Part shown: in pieces, positions 35,471-49,502 of the stretch
Position numbering within the stretch: position 1 is the stretch's first letter
Layout: each line of letters starts with the position of its first letter
NCBI GenBank assembly: GCA_012103315.1
Contig: WLWZ01000018.1
Location: 1 to 64,000, forward strand
DNA from: Alphaproteobacteria bacterium
GTDB taxonomy: Bacteria > Pseudomonadota > Alphaproteobacteria > MPNO01 > UBA2964
Reading direction: 5' to 3'
DNA length: 64,000 nt
The notes under the pieces: generated by a model
The model's database searches: none
Told to the model about the DNA's origin: nothing
Seen by the model: the letters and a program-made list of their open reading frames with translations, nothing else
Position numbers and translations under genes: made by a program

Positions 35471-36148
35471 TTGAAGGGCGCCACGATTTTATTTACCGAA
35501 ATGTCCCCCGACGAAGATTGGGAAGACGATTTTAATCACTGGTATGATACGCATCACATCCCTGCCCGCACTCAGGTTGAAGGATTTATCAGTGCCCAGA
35601 GATACCGGGACCCTGACAGGCCAACCTATCTCGCTGTTTATGAAATAGCATCGGAAGAGGTTTTGGAGAGCGTTCCCTACCAGAAAGTTCGGGCACAACC
35701 GAACGCGCAAACAGCGTGGATGCTGTCCAATGTCCAGAATTACAGCCGTTATATTGGCAATGAGATAAGTGACACGCGACAGGATGGCGTTACGGACGAT
35801 GTTCTCGACGAAGCGTTTGTCTATGCCGTTTTCTTTAGTGTCCCTGATGAACGCGCCGAAGAATTCAACAAATGGTACGAAGAAGAGCATAGTCAAATGC
35901 TTCTGAAATGCCCCGAATGGAAAGCGGTACGGCGATTTGAAATCACCGACGGAGACCCGCAGCCATGGACCCATCTAGCGCTTCACTACCTTTCAGATGC
36001 CGATGCAGCTCTTTCCTCAGCTGAACGTAAAGCCGCACGTGACACAGATTGGCGGAAGAAACTGGCAGAAGAAGCATGGTTTCAGGGCAGCAATCATGTT
36101 TACGAAGCAGTCGGCTATCGGTTTATGAGTGAGGACGACGACTCCTAG
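35471..36148 (+). CDS. EthD/dabb-like protein with two ferredoxin-fold repeats, paralogue 1
   Basis: A 225-residue protein built of two similar halves, each with the pattern F-x-x-WYD/E-x-x-H (DFNHWYDTHHIP near residue 25; EFNKWYEEEHSQ near 140). This resembles tandem EthD/dimeric alpha-beta barrel domains. EthD-type proteins are small cytosolic accessory or lyase-like enzymes in catabolic clusters, but their reaction here is unknown. The start is TTG 35471 with AAGGAG seven bases upstream. It aligns along its full length with the protein encoded at 38320-38997. It is divergent from the oxygenase operon and is followed by a PPIase gene. Confidence 0.75.
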   Translation: MKGATILFTEMSPDEDWEDDFNHWYDTHHIPARTQVEGFISAQRYRDPDRPTYLAVYEIASEEVLESVPYQKVRAQPNAQTAWMLSNVQNYSRYIGNEISDTRQDGVTDDVLDEAFVYAVFFSVPDERAEEFNKWYEEEHSQMLLKCPEWKAVRRFEITDGDPQPWTHLALHYLSDADAALSSAERKAARDTDWRKKLAEEAWFQGSNHVYEAVGYRFMSEDDDS

Positions 36149-37132: not shown

Positions 37133-37867
37133 ATGACAATGGAAGAACGCCCCGCCAGCTGGCGCGCACGAATTGGTACCATCATTCCGGTCAGCAACAC
37201 GACCAATGAAACCGAATTCAATCGGATGAAGCCGGATGGCGTGACCGTCCACTTCACACGCGTACCGCTTCACGGCAACCCGGCAGAAGACGATTTTCAG
37301 GATATGTTATCCCATGCCGGGGAGGCATCTGAAGGCCTTGCCGCTGCTGGCGCCGACGTCATCGCCTATGGTTGCACATCCGGTTCTATGATTTGTCCTT
37401 CCGACCGGCTCATCGGCACGATGGAGGACGCCTCTGGTAAGCCGGCCATATCAACCGCGGGTGCCATCCTCGAAGCCCTAAAAGCGCTTGGCATAAAACG
37501 GCTGTCGATGGCGACGCCCTATTCTGATGCGACCAACGAAAAAGAACGCGCCTATATTGAACGCAACGGGTTCGAGGTATCGGCGATGAAAGGTCTTGGT
37601 CTTGGCGGTACGCTTGAAAAAATTCAAAAAATGTCGCGTGTGCCACCGTCTGAGATTTTCGACCACGCCAAATCTGTGGACCGTGATGACGCCGAAGCCA
37701 TCTTGATCTGTTGCACTGATTTTGGCTCAGCCGGAATTGTAGAGGATATAGAAAACGATCTCGGAAAGCCGGTTATCACAAGTAACACTGCATCCTTTTG
37801 GCACGCCTTGCGTCGCGCTGGCGTTAACGATGCGATTGAGGGTTACGGCCAACTACTGCGCCAGTAA
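37133..37867 (+). CDS. Asp/Glu racemase-fold enzyme, maleate isomerase-like
   Basis: A 244-residue member of the maleate isomerase/arylmalonate decarboxylase group. Both catalytic cysteines of the two-cysteine mechanism are present: Cys81 in AYGCTSGS and Cys194 in LICCTDFGS. The N-terminal GTIIPVSNTTNETEF and TRVPLHG patterns are family-typical. Possible reactions are maleate to fumarate isomerisation, which ends several nicotinate- and maleamate-type routes, or a related racemisation. It follows the PPIase gene by 16 bases. A second family member, lacking both cysteines, is at 44696. Confidence 0.85.
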   Translation: MTMEERPASWRARIGTIIPVSNTTNETEFNRMKPDGVTVHFTRVPLHGNPAEDDFQDMLSHAGEASEGLAAAGADVIAYGCTSGSMICPSDRLIGTMEDASGKPAISTAGAILEALKALGIKRLSMATPYSDATNEKERAYIERNGFEVSAMKGLGLGGTLEKIQKMSRVPPSEIFDHAKSVDRDDAEAILICCTDFGSAGIVEDIENDLGKPVITSNTASFWHALRRAGVNDAIEGYGQLLRQ

Positions 37868-38319: not shown

Positions 38320-38997
38320 TCAGCCGGATTTAAGAAAACGTTTGTTCCGCCGCAGATAAGTCACAACTGTCGGACTAAACCAAGGTTGCTCTGCTAATCT
38401 ATGGCGCCATTCGGTATCAGATGCTGCCGCGCGTTCGGGTGCCTCCAATGCCTCTGGTCCATCGAGATAATGGATTATCAGATGGGTGTGTGGCTCTGGA
38501 TCTTGATCAATAATGTCGAAGCGCCGAGAAAACAGCCAACCTGCATTCTGTTGCAACATGGGAGCGTGTTCGGTGTCGAACCATTCTTCAAACTCACCAC
38601 GTGCTTCCATCGGCACCGTAAACAAGGCGCAGAAGATCACCGCTGCATCGAGCGGCGCCTCAGCGCCACCATTGGGCCCCAGCGTAAACTGTTCCGTCGC
38701 GATATAGCGTGTGAAGCCAGAAACAGATTTAAGCATCTCGTAGGTCGGGTTATCAGGCGTCAGCTTGCGCTTTTTATATTCTTCATGTTCCAGAGTCTCG
38801 GGACCCTCCAGCTCGTAGACCGCCAAAAAATGGGGTCCCTCAGGAGATTGATAGCGCATTGCGCTTCGAAAACCTGGCACGCCTTGCACATGGCTCGGCG
38901 AATGATGCCCGTCATACCAGTCGTTGAACTCGTCCTCACGGCCCGTAGGCGGTGTCATCTCGGAGAACAGAACTGCATTCCCTTTCGTATCATCCAT
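38320..38997 (-). CDS. EthD/dabb-like protein with two ferredoxin-fold repeats, paralogue 2
   Basis: A 225-residue protein, the same length as the one at 35471 and clearly homologous end to end (MTPPTGREDEFNDWYDGHH against MSPDEDWEDDFNHWYDTHH; FEEWFDTEHAPML against FNKWYEEEHSQML). Each half keeps the WY/F-D/E-x-x-H pattern. Function is unknown; EthD-like proteins occur in catabolic operons. It starts at ATG 38997, 22 bases after the aminomutase-like gene, and forms a minus-strand run with it and the PcaC-like gene. Confidence 0.78.
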   Translation of the reverse strand: MDDTKGNAVLFSEMTPPTGREDEFNDWYDGHHSPSHVQGVPGFRSAMRYQSPEGPHFLAVYELEGPETLEHEEYKKRKLTPDNPTYEMLKSVSGFTRYIATEQFTLGPNGGAEAPLDAAVIFCALFTVPMEARGEFEEWFDTEHAPMLQQNAGWLFSRRFDIIDQDPEPHTHLIIHYLDGPEALEAPERAAASDTEWRHRLAEQPWFSPTVVTYLRRNKRFLKSG

Positions 38998-44138: not shown

Positions 44139-44681
44139 ATGACACGTATCGCCATTTTATCGCGTGAAGAGATGAATGAGGAACAGGGAGCCGTCTACGA
44201 CGATGCAAAAGCCGCTGGGAGACCTCTTGGCGGACCATTTTTTGCTTATATCCGTATTCCTGAACTAATGCGCACAACCCAGGAAGTCGGCGCCAGCCTC
44301 GCTGAGGTCTCGTTGACAAAGCGAGAACAGCAGGTCGCCATCCTGACCATTGCCCGTTTCTGGGACGCTCAATATCCATGGGCGGTACAAGTTCGGGCGT
44401 CCCTGAAGATCGGCCTTGACCAAGAAATTATCGACGCGATTAACGCTCAAACAGAACCGCCGATTACAGACAATCGTGAAATGCTCGCGCATAAATGTGC
44501 AACCGAAATGCTAGCGAACAAAGGGATCACCGATGCGACCTATGCCGAAGCCGAGGCTGCTTTTTCAGAGGTAGAGCTGGTCGCCCTGGTGGCAAAAATT
44601 GGATCTTTTGCGATGACCTGTTGTACGGCAAATGCATTTGATGTCACACCGCCCGACGACGCCCCTTCCCGGCTTCTGTAA
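44139..44681 (+). CDS. Carboxymuconolactone decarboxylase-fold protein
   Basis: A 180-residue all-helical protein of the CMD/AhpD superfamily. The core helix TKREQQVAILTIARFWDAQYPWAVQ aligns with the family motif, in which the usual form is YEW-x-x-H; here the histidine position reads Gln and no CxxC pair is present. It is therefore unlikely to be a peroxidase-type AhpD, and could be a decarboxylase-like or binding protein. A vicinal CC lies near residue 165. It is a single gene on its strand, divergent from the crotonase gene and convergent with the racemase-fold gene at 44696. Confidence 0.8.
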   Translation: MTRIAILSREEMNEEQGAVYDDAKAAGRPLGGPFFAYIRIPELMRTTQEVGASLAEVSLTKREQQVAILTIARFWDAQYPWAVQVRASLKIGLDQEIIDAINAQTEPPITDNREMLAHKCATEMLANKGITDATYAEAEAAFSEVELVALVAKIGSFAMTCCTANAFDVTPPDDAPSRLL

Positions 44682-44695
44682 GGAAACGGGCTGCC

Positions 44696-45421
44696 TTAAC
44701 CGATGGTGAAAAGCTGTCCAGCGGCGGGCGGCGGCGTTTCATAGGCGTTGCTCATACCAAGGACACGCCTTGCTCCCGCCCAAAGCGACGCCTGAACGCT
44801 GGTCACCACAGGCTTGCCAAGTTCGGCTTCGATCTGCCCAACGGCTTCAAACATCGTCGTGTTCGAGCCGCTGAGAAAGAATCCATCGGCATCATCGCGA
44901 TCACTCTCCCGTGCCATATCGAGCCAAGCCTTTGGCGGAATTGCGGATGATTGTTCTTGACCCCCACGACCAACTGCGTTGGCCACTGAAAAGCCAGATG
45001 CCTCAAGATACGATTGTTCCCGCGCCATTGGTTCTTCGCCTAATGGATGGATCAGAACAATCCGCTCCATCTCCAACGCGCGAAGGGCTTCGACAGCGGC
45101 TTGTGTTGCTGTATAGGTCGGCGTTGATGTTTCCTTGCAGAGCGAAGCAATGAGTTCGGCTTCACCGATCGGGCCACGTTCCATCATGATCCCGGTACCT
45201 TGGAGGCAAATGACATCGACTTTGGCATCTGTCAGAAGTTTCCCCGCAATCGTCGCATCTTCGGCGATATCATCCATCGTCCGACCACCGCCTGACCCCA
45301 TACGCATACGCGTCGTGAAAACACCTAAATTTTTCGGACCAAATTTCTTGAAATAAGGTTCTACAGTGCGGTTTCCTGCCGACAGTATCAGACCTAGCCC
45401 TCGTGTCGGTAGGACCGCCAA
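44696..45421 (-). CDS. Asp/Glu racemase-fold protein lacking both catalytic cysteines
   Basis: A 241-residue member of the arylmalonate decarboxylase/maleate isomerase group by overall pattern (NRTVEPYFKKFGP, VDVICLQGTGIM, DADGFFLSGSNTTMFE, GKPVVTSVQASLWAGAR). Where the family has its two catalytic cysteines, this protein has Gly75 (QGTG) and Gly185 (SGSN); compare Cys81 and Cys194 in the relative at 37133. A classical racemase or isomerase mechanism is therefore not possible. It may be a binding or regulatory protein, or catalyse a different reaction. It starts at TTG 45421, two bases after the hyuA stop, so it belongs to the hyuB-hyuA transcript. Confidence 0.8.
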   Translation of the reverse strand: MAVLPTRGLGLILSAGNRTVEPYFKKFGPKNLGVFTTRMRMGSGGGRTMDDIAEDATIAGKLLTDAKVDVICLQGTGIMMERGPIGEAELIASLCKETSTPTYTATQAAVEALRALEMERIVLIHPLGEEPMAREQSYLEASGFSVANAVGRGGQEQSSAIPPKAWLDMARESDRDDADGFFLSGSNTTMFEAVGQIEAELGKPVVTSVQASLWAGARRVLGMSNAYETPPPAAGQLFTIG

Positions 45422-45423
45422 GG

Positions 45424-47475
45424 TTAGATGCTCACCTGCGGATTACGGCAATCGAGCGAACCTGCCTCAAGTACAGTGACTTTCCAGCCTGGCGGAACGA
45501 TTGAGGTGCCACCGGCTTCCTCAATGATCGCAGGGCCGGTGAGTTCGAAGCCTGCTTCCATTCGGTCGCGATTATAGATCGGACAATCCGTCCAATCATC
45601 GCCAAACCAGACCTTGCGTACTTCGACAATCAAGTCTTTCCCGTCACCGCTGGTAAAGGCCAGTGTCGGCTTATCAACGATGCCTAGTGAAACCAGCCGG
45701 ATATTGACGATCTCGGCATCGTTGTTAGCATCGGCGTGACCAAAGGTCTCCGTATGACGTTGCGCAAATGCATTGCGCACGGCATCCCAATCGGCTGCGT
45801 TCTCATCAAGCGGCACTGCAAGCGTATAAGATTGGCCGACATAACGCATATCGACTGTAAAGCTATGAGATTGTATATCGGGACCAAAACCGGCGTCAGC
45901 AAGCGATTTGCTGGCGTCTGACTTCATCTCGTTCGCAGGACCGTTTAGCTCCGCCGGATCGAGCGCACTGAGCTTGCCTCCCCAGGCCCGCACTGAATCC
46001 AGCCGCTGATCAGCTAGTAGCTGTCCGAGTGCAGATAAATGACCGGGATAACGCGGCACGATCACCTGTGGTACGGCTAATTCTTCTGCAACGAGGAAGA
46101 CATGCATCGGTCCAGCGCCACCGAAACCCAATAGGGCAAAGTCACGTGGATCAAACCCACGATGGACTGACACTTCGCGTACGGCGCCAGCCATCTTGGC
46201 GACAGCAATCCGCAACACACCATCAGCAAGCGGCACGATATCGCCACCGCCAAGCTTTTCGGCCAATGAGGCAAATGCCGTGTCTGATGCCGTCTTATCA
46301 AGCTGCAATCCGCCAGAAAGTGTGCGTTCCGTCGGCAAGCGGCCGAGAACCAGATTGGCGTCTGAAATTGTCGGCTGTGTGCCACCACGTCCATAACAGG
46401 CTGGCCCTGGCAAGGCGCCCGCGCTCTGCGGGCCAACTTCGAGAGTTCCGTCATCCTGAACCCAGGCAATGGAACCACCCCCTGCCCCAATCGTATGAAT
46501 ATCGAGCTGCGGCACCTGTAACGGGTAGGCGTCGATTTGATTGTCATGACTGATCCGCGGTGTCCGCTGATAAATCAGCGCAACGTCTGTCGAAGTACCG
46601 CCCATATCAAACGTGATGCAGTCCTGAACATCCGCCATTTCGCAAATGCGAACCGCGCCACCAGCGCCGCCAACCGGACCCGACAGAAACGTTCCCGCGG
46701 CAAACTTGGCAGCTTGCGGCAGGGTCATCGCCCCACCATTGGACCCCATGATATTGACCGGCGCTTTCACGCCTTTGTCATTTAGCTCACCCGCTAGGGT
46801 CTCAAGATATTTGATTACCACCGGCGTCAGATAGGCATTCAACACACAGGTTGAAAAACGATGGAACTCGCCCTGCTCCGCCACGACATCGGTCGAATGA
46901 CAAACCGGGACATCTCCCAATAGCTGACCGAGCGCAGAAGCGGCATCGCGTTCTGTCTTGTCATTGGCATAGGCATTCACAAAGCCAATAGCGACAGCTT
47001 CAACACCGTCTGACTTCAATCGCTCCGCCAGCGGTCCAAAATCATAATCAGCGATGTCATTGAGGACCTCGCCATCGGCAGCCGTCCGTTCGGGAACTTC
47101 AATCCGCAAAGGCCGATCAACCAACGGCTTAGGTCTAACGAACTTGATGTCAAACAATCCACCGATGAGACGCCGTGTTCGACCAATCTCAAGCGTATCG
47201 CGGAAGCCTTCTGTCGTGATCATCGCTGTTTTGGCGCCCTTGCGTTCAAGCAGAGCATTGGTCGCAATCGTTGTGCCGTGTACGAAAGCCCGGATATCAC
47301 CGGGTGCAATTCCAAGCTCACCCAGCGCATTGAGCACGCCTTCCCATTGTTTTCCGGGCAATGAAGGCGTTTTCGCCGATAAAAGCGTCTGGTTTTCAAT
47401 ATCGAGACACAGGATATCGGTAAATGTGCCGCCAACATCGATGCCAACAAGATAACGCTGTGAACTATCGGTCAT
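45424..47475 (-). CDS. hyuA: Hydantoinase/oxoprolinase family subunit A
   Basis: ATP-dependent hydantoinase/5-oxoprolinase A subunit, 683 residues. The N-terminal actin-like ATPase motif GIDVGGTFTDIL and the HGTTIATNALLERKGAKTA stretch are hallmarks. The second phosphate motif TFDMGGTSTDVAL and the catalytic-site IGAGGGSIAWV are present. With HyuB it couples ATP hydrolysis to opening of cyclic amides (hydantoins, oxoproline) or to carboxylation of ketones (acetone/acetophenone carboxylase). These cannot be told apart here. The ATG at 47475 overlaps the hyuB stop (ATGA), indicating coupled translation. Confidence 0.93.
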   Translation of the reverse strand: MTDSSQRYLVGIDVGGTFTDILCLDIENQTLLSAKTPSLPGKQWEGVLNALGELGIAPGDIRAFVHGTTIATNALLERKGAKTAMITTEGFRDTLEIGRTRRLIGGLFDIKFVRPKPLVDRPLRIEVPERTAADGEVLNDIADYDFGPLAERLKSDGVEAVAIGFVNAYANDKTERDAASALGQLLGDVPVCHSTDVVAEQGEFHRFSTCVLNAYLTPVVIKYLETLAGELNDKGVKAPVNIMGSNGGAMTLPQAAKFAAGTFLSGPVGGAGGAVRICEMADVQDCITFDMGGTSTDVALIYQRTPRISHDNQIDAYPLQVPQLDIHTIGAGGGSIAWVQDDGTLEVGPQSAGALPGPACYGRGGTQPTISDANLVLGRLPTERTLSGGLQLDKTASDTAFASLAEKLGGGDIVPLADGVLRIAVAKMAGAVREVSVHRGFDPRDFALLGFGGAGPMHVFLVAEELAVPQVIVPRYPGHLSALGQLLADQRLDSVRAWGGKLSALDPAELNGPANEMKSDASKSLADAGFGPDIQSHSFTVDMRYVGQSYTLAVPLDENAADWDAVRNAFAQRHTETFGHADANNDAEIVNIRLVSLGIVDKPTLAFTSGDGKDLIVEVRKVWFGDDWTDCPIYNRDRMEAGFELTGPAIIEEAGGTSIVPPGWKVTVLEAGSLDCRNPQVSI

Positions 47476-49502
47476 GACAGCACTCCTGCCGGCGCTGCCT
47501 GGACGGCACGTATCTCGATCCCCTCGCCGGGATCAGCGTTTAACAGTTTCATCCCCGCCGGTCCGACAGGAATCACAGCATCCGTACCATCGGTAACACG
47601 CGCCCAGCCCCGCAGAGGAGCGACTGCTTTCCCTCGCAGCTCGACCAAATCACCTTCGGAAATACCCAAATTACCGGCGAGAGCTGACGGAACTGCAATA
47701 CGACGGCGTGGACCATCGATGTCGTCTTCATTGGCGATTTCAAGCTTCACGGTTTCCCGCGCGCCTGCCAAACTCTCTCGTTTTACTGACGTGGCCGCTG
47801 CATCGACACTGCCATCACTGCCATCACTGCCAAGAACAACACCGTAACGTGTCTCGGCCTGGTCGGCGGTTAGATATTCAAGGCCAACATCGTCGGCCAC
47901 TAAGGCTGGATCGCGGGTTAGCGGATCACCAAATCCACCACCACCAGCAGTTTCCTCGCGGACGATATCGCCGGTTCCAAGGGTGAAACCTGAAACCTTA
48001 CCGGGGACGTCTGAAGGCTGAATTACCTCGCCATCTCGTTCAACGACAAACCGATTGGCTGCGCCATTGCTGCCACCCGCAACTCCGTAAGGCGGAATAA
48101 CATTCTTTTCTGAGAGGACTGACAACATTGCGGTCTCATCGAGGACACGCAGTTCGCGCCGCAAGCCAAAGCCACCCCGGTTAGCCCCATCACCACAGGC
48201 ACCGGTCCTGATCTCGCATCGTTCAACACGAAGCGGATATTGCGATTCGACCGTTTCCACCGACTGGATCGAGTTAAAGTCGCCTTCGTTATAACTTCGT
48301 ACGGCGTTGCTGCCATCGACACCCGCAGATGCCCCAGTGCCGCCCGCCGGCCATTCGTAATGGATATAGGTTCCGCCATCTTCGCGCGGTCCCGCAATAT
48401 GAATGTGGTTGGCACCGCCTTTGAGATCGCCCACGCTCATCTCTGGCACCACCTGCCCCATTGCGGCAGCTACGACAGAGTCGATCAGGAATTTGACCTC
48501 AGCCATGCCACCGCATGGCGCGGTTTCCCGTGCATTAATGAAGCTCTTTTCCGGTGCCGTAACGCTGATCGGGTTAAACGAGCCATTATTAATCGGTGTT
48601 TTGGGATCGAGGAAAGCTTTAACAATAGTGCCCACCGCATTAAACGCCATAGCTGGACCACAGTTGGTCGGTCCATTGGTCTGCGCCGAAGTGCCAGTGA
48701 AGTCTGCGTTTATAGAATCGCCTTCAACAGTGAGCTTGAGCCGGACGACCAATGGATCAGGGTTCGATCCGTCGCTTTCAATATAGCCTTCGGCAAAGTA
48801 ATCGCCGTCGGGACAGTCAGAAATTCGCGAGCGCATCTGCCGTTCAGAGCGATCAATTAACGCTTCCACCCCATCAATCAACCCATCACCGCCAAAGCGC
48901 TGAAAGAGCCGCTCCAGATGTTCTGCGGCCTTACGGCCGGTACCGAGCATTGCGTTAAAATCGCCGATACGTTCTTCGGGGCCGCGCATATTGTTAAATA
49001 AGGCATCAAGAACCGCTTGATTCATCACGCCCTTTTCGCAAATACGCGTCGGCGTAATCCGAATACCTTCCTGATAAATCTCTTTAACCCGGCCAGACAG
49101 CGAGCCTGGTGTCATGCCACCGACATCGTTCCAATGGCACCGCATCGCCGCAAAAAGCGCCAGTTTGCCTTCGTTGAATACAGGATGGAGGAGCAAAACG
49201 TCATTCAGATGCGTTCCGCCAGTATAGGGGTCGTTATGAAGAAACAGGTCGCCCTCGTGAATATCATCTTTGAAAGCCTTCACGACTTCGCGGGTCGAAT
49301 ACGGCACAGCAAAGATATGAATCGGGTGATCGGCTAACCCCTGTGCCACCTGTCGACCATCGGCAGACATGAGCGCACAAGAGAAATCATGTCCCTCGTA
49401 AATAATTGCCGCGTAGGAAGAATGGATGATGTTAGCGCGCATCTCGTTAACGACAGCAACGAGGGATTCCCGGATTAGTTCTAGCTGGATAAGCGGATTC
49501 AT
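47472..49502 (-). CDS. hyuB: Hydantoinase/oxoprolinase family subunit B with extra C-terminal domain
   Basis: HyuB-type subunit, 676 residues, about 100 longer than most. The family core (MRANIIHSSYAAIIYEGHDFSCA, DLFLHNDPYTGGTHLNDV, HWNDVGGMTPGS, ETAGGGGFGDPLTRDP) ends near residue 535. After a Gly/Ser/Asp linker comes a separate domain of about 90 residues (RRRIAVPSALAGNLGISEGD to GEGIEIRAV) whose pattern resembles a double-psi beta-barrel such as the CDC48 N-terminal domain; that likeness is my inference. It partners HyuA, with the stop overlapping the hyuA start. It starts at ATG 49502. Confidence 0.92.
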   Translation of the reverse strand: MNPLIQLELIRESLVAVVNEMRANIIHSSYAAIIYEGHDFSCALMSADGRQVAQGLADHPIHIFAVPYSTREVVKAFKDDIHEGDLFLHNDPYTGGTHLNDVLLLHPVFNEGKLALFAAMRCHWNDVGGMTPGSLSGRVKEIYQEGIRITPTRICEKGVMNQAVLDALFNNMRGPEERIGDFNAMLGTGRKAAEHLERLFQRFGGDGLIDGVEALIDRSERQMRSRISDCPDGDYFAEGYIESDGSNPDPLVVRLKLTVEGDSINADFTGTSAQTNGPTNCGPAMAFNAVGTIVKAFLDPKTPINNGSFNPISVTAPEKSFINARETAPCGGMAEVKFLIDSVVAAAMGQVVPEMSVGDLKGGANHIHIAGPREDGGTYIHYEWPAGGTGASAGVDGSNAVRSYNEGDFNSIQSVETVESQYPLRVERCEIRTGACGDGANRGGFGLRRELRVLDETAMLSVLSEKNVIPPYGVAGGSNGAANRFVVERDGEVIQPSDVPGKVSGFTLGTGDIVREETAGGGGFGDPLTRDPALVADDVGLEYLTADQAETRYGVVLGSDGSDGSVDAAATSVKRESLAGARETVKLEIANEDDIDGPRRRIAVPSALAGNLGISEGDLVELRGKAVAPLRGWARVTDGTDAVIPVGPAGMKLLNADPGEGIEIRAVQAAPAGVLS
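47811..47831. repeat. Short 9-base tandem repeat inside hyuB
   Basis: GCCATCACT is repeated twice and followed by GCC, encoding the Gly-Ser-Asp repeats of the linker between the HyuB core and its C-terminal domain. The length is a multiple of three, so copy changes would not break the frame. Confidence 0.7.

Follow-up and report, generated by a model that had tools for sequence, protein, structure and literature searches.

A cysteine-less member of the arylmalonate decarboxylase/maleate isomerase family encoded directly downstream of hyuA in an alphaproteobacterial genus

The mechanism of the arylmalonate decarboxylase (AMDase)/maleate isomerase family is explained through its cysteines. In the AMDase of Bordetella bronchiseptica (3dtv, 3eis), C188 protonates an enediolate intermediate, which is stabilised by a dioxyanion hole (PMC12576825, PMC4517146). 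The active-site residues of the enzyme are listed in PMC4996985, from which we took the residue criteria applied here, and TTT-type transport genes are reported there as neighbours of true AMDases. The maleate cis-trans isomerases of Nocardia farcinica (2xec) and Pseudomonas putida (4fq7) use two catalytic cysteines together with a Tyr. Here we describe, from its sequence and predicted structure, a family member, protein J, that has glycine at both cysteine positions. It is encoded in a window of 64,000 nucleotides of alphaproteobacterial DNA, the whole stretch that was analysed, in which the following genes are relevant:

44696-45421, reverse strand: protein J, a Cys-less Amdase-family protein of 241 aa with a TTG start
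45424-47475, reverse strand: hyuA (hydantoinase A/oxoprolinase), directly upstream of protein J
47472-49502, reverse strand: hyuB (hydantoinase B/oxoprolinase), overlapping hyuA by 4 nt
37133-37867, forward strand: a Cys/Cys Amdase-family relative in the same cluster, 30% identical to protein J

The frame of protein J is open and begins 2 nt after the stop codon of hyuA. Its TTG start codon is unusual but credible, given that orthologues of the same genus start at or near the same codon (ATG at the same codon in five, GTG one codon earlier in a sixth). The frame is open in all seven copies from the genus, and these orthologues, from separate genomes, rule out a sequencing error or pseudogene as the source of the two glycines. 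The order hyuB-hyuA-J recurs in 7/7 genus members with a hyuA-J spacing of 0–2 nt, so the tight coupling to hyuA proposed in the sequence-only reading holds genus-wide. No promoter-like site was found in 44600-45500, and this, with the close same-strand spacing, suggests that protein J is co-transcribed with hyuBA.

In the genus, the hyuB-hyuA-J block also holds an AMP ligase, an amidase, a crotonase, a dehydrogenase, an aminotransferase, and the Cys/Cys relative. A CMD gene is also present in the cluster, and the wider window contains Rieske oxygenases, amidohydrolases, a second amidase, and a dienelactone hydrolase (DLH). This gene set probably serves the catabolism of a compound that is aromatic or carries an amide. 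The Cys/Cys relative is flanked by genes for two similar-looking 225-aa proteins (35471-36148 and 38320-38997), the latter with a weak, below cut-off match to ABM/DUF4286.

Protein J belongs to the AMDase/maleate isomerase family. It scores 67.7 bits against the Pfam Amdase profile (PF17645), above the curated cut-off of 25.9, and by sequence its top hits in the PDB are arylmalonate decarboxylase and maleate isomerase. The AlphaFold2 model (pLDDT 85.7) superimposes on AMDase 3eis with a Z of 29.2 (2.0 Å over 222 residues) and on 4ix1 with a Z of 28.7, with values of 28–29 across the AMDase, 4ix1 and maleate isomerase entries. The racemase-type fold assigned earlier is thus recovered as an AMDase fold. 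The Asp/Glu/hydantoin racemase profile PF01177 picked up the relative at 37133 at E 0.01, but not protein J. The best NCBIfam match, over the full length, was the ectoine utilization protein EutA (TIGR02990), but at 86.7 bits against a cut-off of 318, and no ectoine genes were recognised among the neighbours scanned.

The codons that bear on the active site, all on the reverse strand, are as follows:

45197-45199, reverse strand: Gly75 (GGT), column of the first catalytic Cys and of AMDase G74
44867-44869, reverse strand: Gly185 (GGC), column of the second catalytic Cys and of AMDase C188
45041-45043, reverse strand: Leu127 (TTA), column of the AMDase dioxyanion-hole Tyr126
45206-45208, reverse strand: Cys72, variable within the clade and outside the active-site columns
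45137-45139, reverse strand: Cys95, near the far end of helix 76-98

With phmmer, Gly75 of protein J pairs with G74 of AMDase and Gly185 with the catalytic C188. When 183 family members were aligned in MAFFT together with AMDase, the Nocardia maleate isomerase, 4ix1 and 2dgd, the same columns emerged, reading C/C in the maleate isomerase, G/C in AMDase, C/C in the relative at 37133, and G/G in protein J. The sequence-only reading had placed Gly75 and Gly185 at the two catalytic positions and both cysteines in the relative, as these alignments confirm. The sole cysteines of protein J are C72 and C95. In the model, C72 lies in strand 70-73, before the motif, and its column holds Tyr in one genus member (L011/L074) and Asp in the two clade members from outside the genus (L097 and L099); C95 sits near the far end of helix 76-98, at whose start the motif is found, and is Ala in the same two members. 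Alignment, conservation, and secondary structure together rule out either residue as an active-site thiol, so the description of the protein as lacking catalytic cysteines stands. We did note that L097 and L099 have a Cys at loop position 154 (protein J numbering), which the hyuA-linked members lack; the loop may lie alongside the pocket, and this Cys might be a substitute thiol.

Placed by alignment to AMDase numbering, the pocket of protein J keeps only part of the AMDase active-site apparatus. Fold, length, the Gly at 74/75, and Thr75/76 are shared with AMDase, while C188 is replaced by G185, Tyr126 by Leu127 (Gly in L097 and L099), Ser76 by Gly77, G189 by S186, P14-P15 by S14-A15, and the hydrophobic pocket L40/V43/Y48 by M41/G44/M49. 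The V156/M159 columns fall in a poorly aligned loop, where protein J has a gap and S158. With the maleate isomerases, protein J shares the fold, N17, R38, and the TRMRM segment, but has G75, G185 and L127 in place of their two cysteines and Tyr. A parallel in cysteine state is 4IX1 (hypothetical protein OPAG_01669 of Rhodococcus opacus), which also has Gly at both Cys columns; it differs in keeping Tyr at the Tyr126 position and is only 22% identical. Within the set of papers searched, none on Cys-less family members or on 4IX1 was found.

The clade of protein J comprises nine complete sequences, all Gly/Gly: seven from the genus (71–100% identical to protein J) and two from other alphaproteobacterial MAGs (53% and 48%). 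A fragment covering residues 2-88 only (L098/L077; 66% identity) comes from another genus of the same family. A single-protein query of the genome contigs returned no loci, whereas an alignment-based search returned nine; a plasmid search gave distant relatives only (<60% identity), and a clade profile run over 385 genomes of the class found close relatives confined to the genus. The motifs LQGTG and LSGS, with Gly75 and Gly185, are invariant in the nine complete sequences, and the RMGSGG-R loop, variable in Cys/Cys relatives, is constant save for one G/A swap. Ten residues (S14, G16, Y23, G42, G44, G45, R47, E81, R82 and M190) are invariant in the clade at columns that vary or differ in Cys/Cys relatives, and we read them as a probable rebuilt pocket under constraint.

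In a quick, unrooted maximum-likelihood tree, with the two trait columns left out, the Gly/Gly sequences grouped together (SH-aLRT 100) within a larger set that also holds Cys/Cys members and a single Tyr/Cys member (SH-aLRT 97). Although the lack of a root leaves the direction of change to inference, Cys/Cys was most likely the starting state, with the replacement by glycine probably a single event for this clade. The pN/pS of protein J against the gene in the window is 0.18–0.23, the highest in the cluster (~1.5–6x its neighbours; ~0.03–0.16 for the other genes compared), although these ratios are comparative only, with synonymous sites near saturation. Protein J is therefore under purifying selection (pN/pS well below 1), and the raised ratio is as compatible with relaxed constraint as with a new function. 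Across this evidence, the Gly/Gly state is a real, fixed replacement.

The best explanation as a whole, in which our confidence is evenly balanced, is that protein J has a repurposed pocket for a carboxylated intermediate from the catabolic cluster, which it binds and may also convert by thiol-free chemistry. Protein J would be a folded, selected, lineage-specific offshoot of the maleate isomerase/AMDase family in which glycine took the place of both cysteines that ancestrally served as the acid-base (or nucleophile) pair and the surrounding pocket was rebuilt. A carboxylate-bearing catabolic intermediate would most likely still be bound, via the retained family elements N17, R38, T76, S186, S208 and Q210 and the clade-specific S14, G42/G44/G45, R47 and E81-R82, and would then be either turned over without a thiol or simply held. 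In this genus, its gene would have become part of the hyuBA operon within an amide/aromatic catabolic cluster. Ligand binding is possible, and the retained family residues may be purely structural. More tentatively, and somewhat doubtful in our view, the Gly/Gly clade may be a branch of the AMDase/maleate isomerase fold that catalyses without any thiol, through a new active site formed by S14, R47, E81 and R82; its substrate would be what a HyuAB-type amide hydrolase or carboxylase consumes or releases.

The alternative that survives best, though we consider it unlikely, is that protein J serves in this genus as a non-catalytic accessory subunit or chaperone of HyuAB. Its position directly after hyuA in 7/7 genus members (0–2 nt), the loss of the active-site Cys, Cys and Tyr, and its faster evolution than HyuA and HyuB would all suit such a role. 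Against this stand the gene contexts outside the genus. In L097 and L099, the Gly/Gly gene comes after one for a TctC-like receptor (27% identity to a neighbour matching PF03401) with an FMN-dependent dehydrogenase nearby, and neither hyuA nor hyuB lies beside it; upstream of the L098/L077 fragment is a nitroreductase-family gene, with hyuA absent within reach. The occurrence of the clade protein beside TctC-like receptor genes makes an obligate HyuA-partner role unlikely, and the differing contexts argue for a stand-alone function. Cys-less members are also not generally enriched near hyuA/B (2/14, with the protein J clade left out, vs 7/89 Cys/Cys members, p 0.35), which speaks against a general link between cysteine loss and hyuA, a tree-aware version of the comparison having too few informative pairs to add to this; the dedicated partner role suggested in the sequence-only reading thus finds no support in these three loci or in this survey. 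A heteromer of protein J with a Cys/Cys paralogue appears unlikely too, no such paralogue having been found beside the clade gene in L097 or L099.

A role as a hydantoin/allantoin-type racemase or isomerase that needs no thiol appears distinctly improbable. The predicted fold is of racemase type, hydantoinase-type genes adjoin protein J, and superfamily racemases have been reported with Thr or Ala replacing one Cys (PMC12838360); those cases, however, retain one Cys where protein J has none. Moreover, glycine has no acid/base side chain, and the OpaE double mutant C90S/C199S lost nearly all activity (PMC12661438). Hydantoin-type racemisation by other residues, as had been proposed, finds no positive support, given the unmatched PF01177 profile and the loss of the AMDase-pocket Tyr. 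That protein J is a decaying relic heading for loss is scarcely credible and appears largely refuted by conservation: despite its cluster-high pN/pS and lost catalytic residues, its frame is open in 7/7 genus copies at a pN/pS of ~0.2, and both motifs are invariant and recur at 48–53% identity in other taxa.

The complete absence of both cysteines had been considered unusual, a view that the wider family does not bear out. In a profile-drawn (Pfam) sample of the phylum (n=80), 59 members were Cys/Cys, 17 had one cysteine, and four had none. Both were lacking in 26/183 members of the pooled set, where relatives of protein J are over-represented, and 4IX1 adds a solved Gly/Gly structure. In this genome, four of the nine Amdase paralogues are Cys-less: protein J, the C22 and C2 paralogues (Gly/Gly), and one C19 paralogue (Met/Gly). 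On the family tree, cysteines must have been lost or gained at least seven times, with deep branches poorly supported. The Cys-less state thus appears to be a minority but recurrent condition of several lineages and not unique to protein J. Further Cys-less motif classes recur in the family alignment (MGMSxxTF/QVGTNLxM, FCQTxAS/PGGNMPC, TSTSASF/PDTALHS and GNPxN/SAHW), and we know of no function for any of them.

Several lineages, the protein J clade among them, are conserved although both cysteines have been dropped. The textbook mechanism is therefore not available to a minority of the proteins annotated as 'racemase', 'maleate isomerase' or 'arylmalonate decarboxylase'. Protein J is a modest but testable Cys-less variant of a known decarboxylase/isomerase family for which a Cys-less structure is already in the structure database, and its clade, together with 4IX1, offers a concrete system for asking what such members do. 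We also noted that this genome shows an unusual expansion of the Amdase family, with nine genes of mixed cysteine states; none of the 68 other genomes in the phylum sample that carry the family has more than three.
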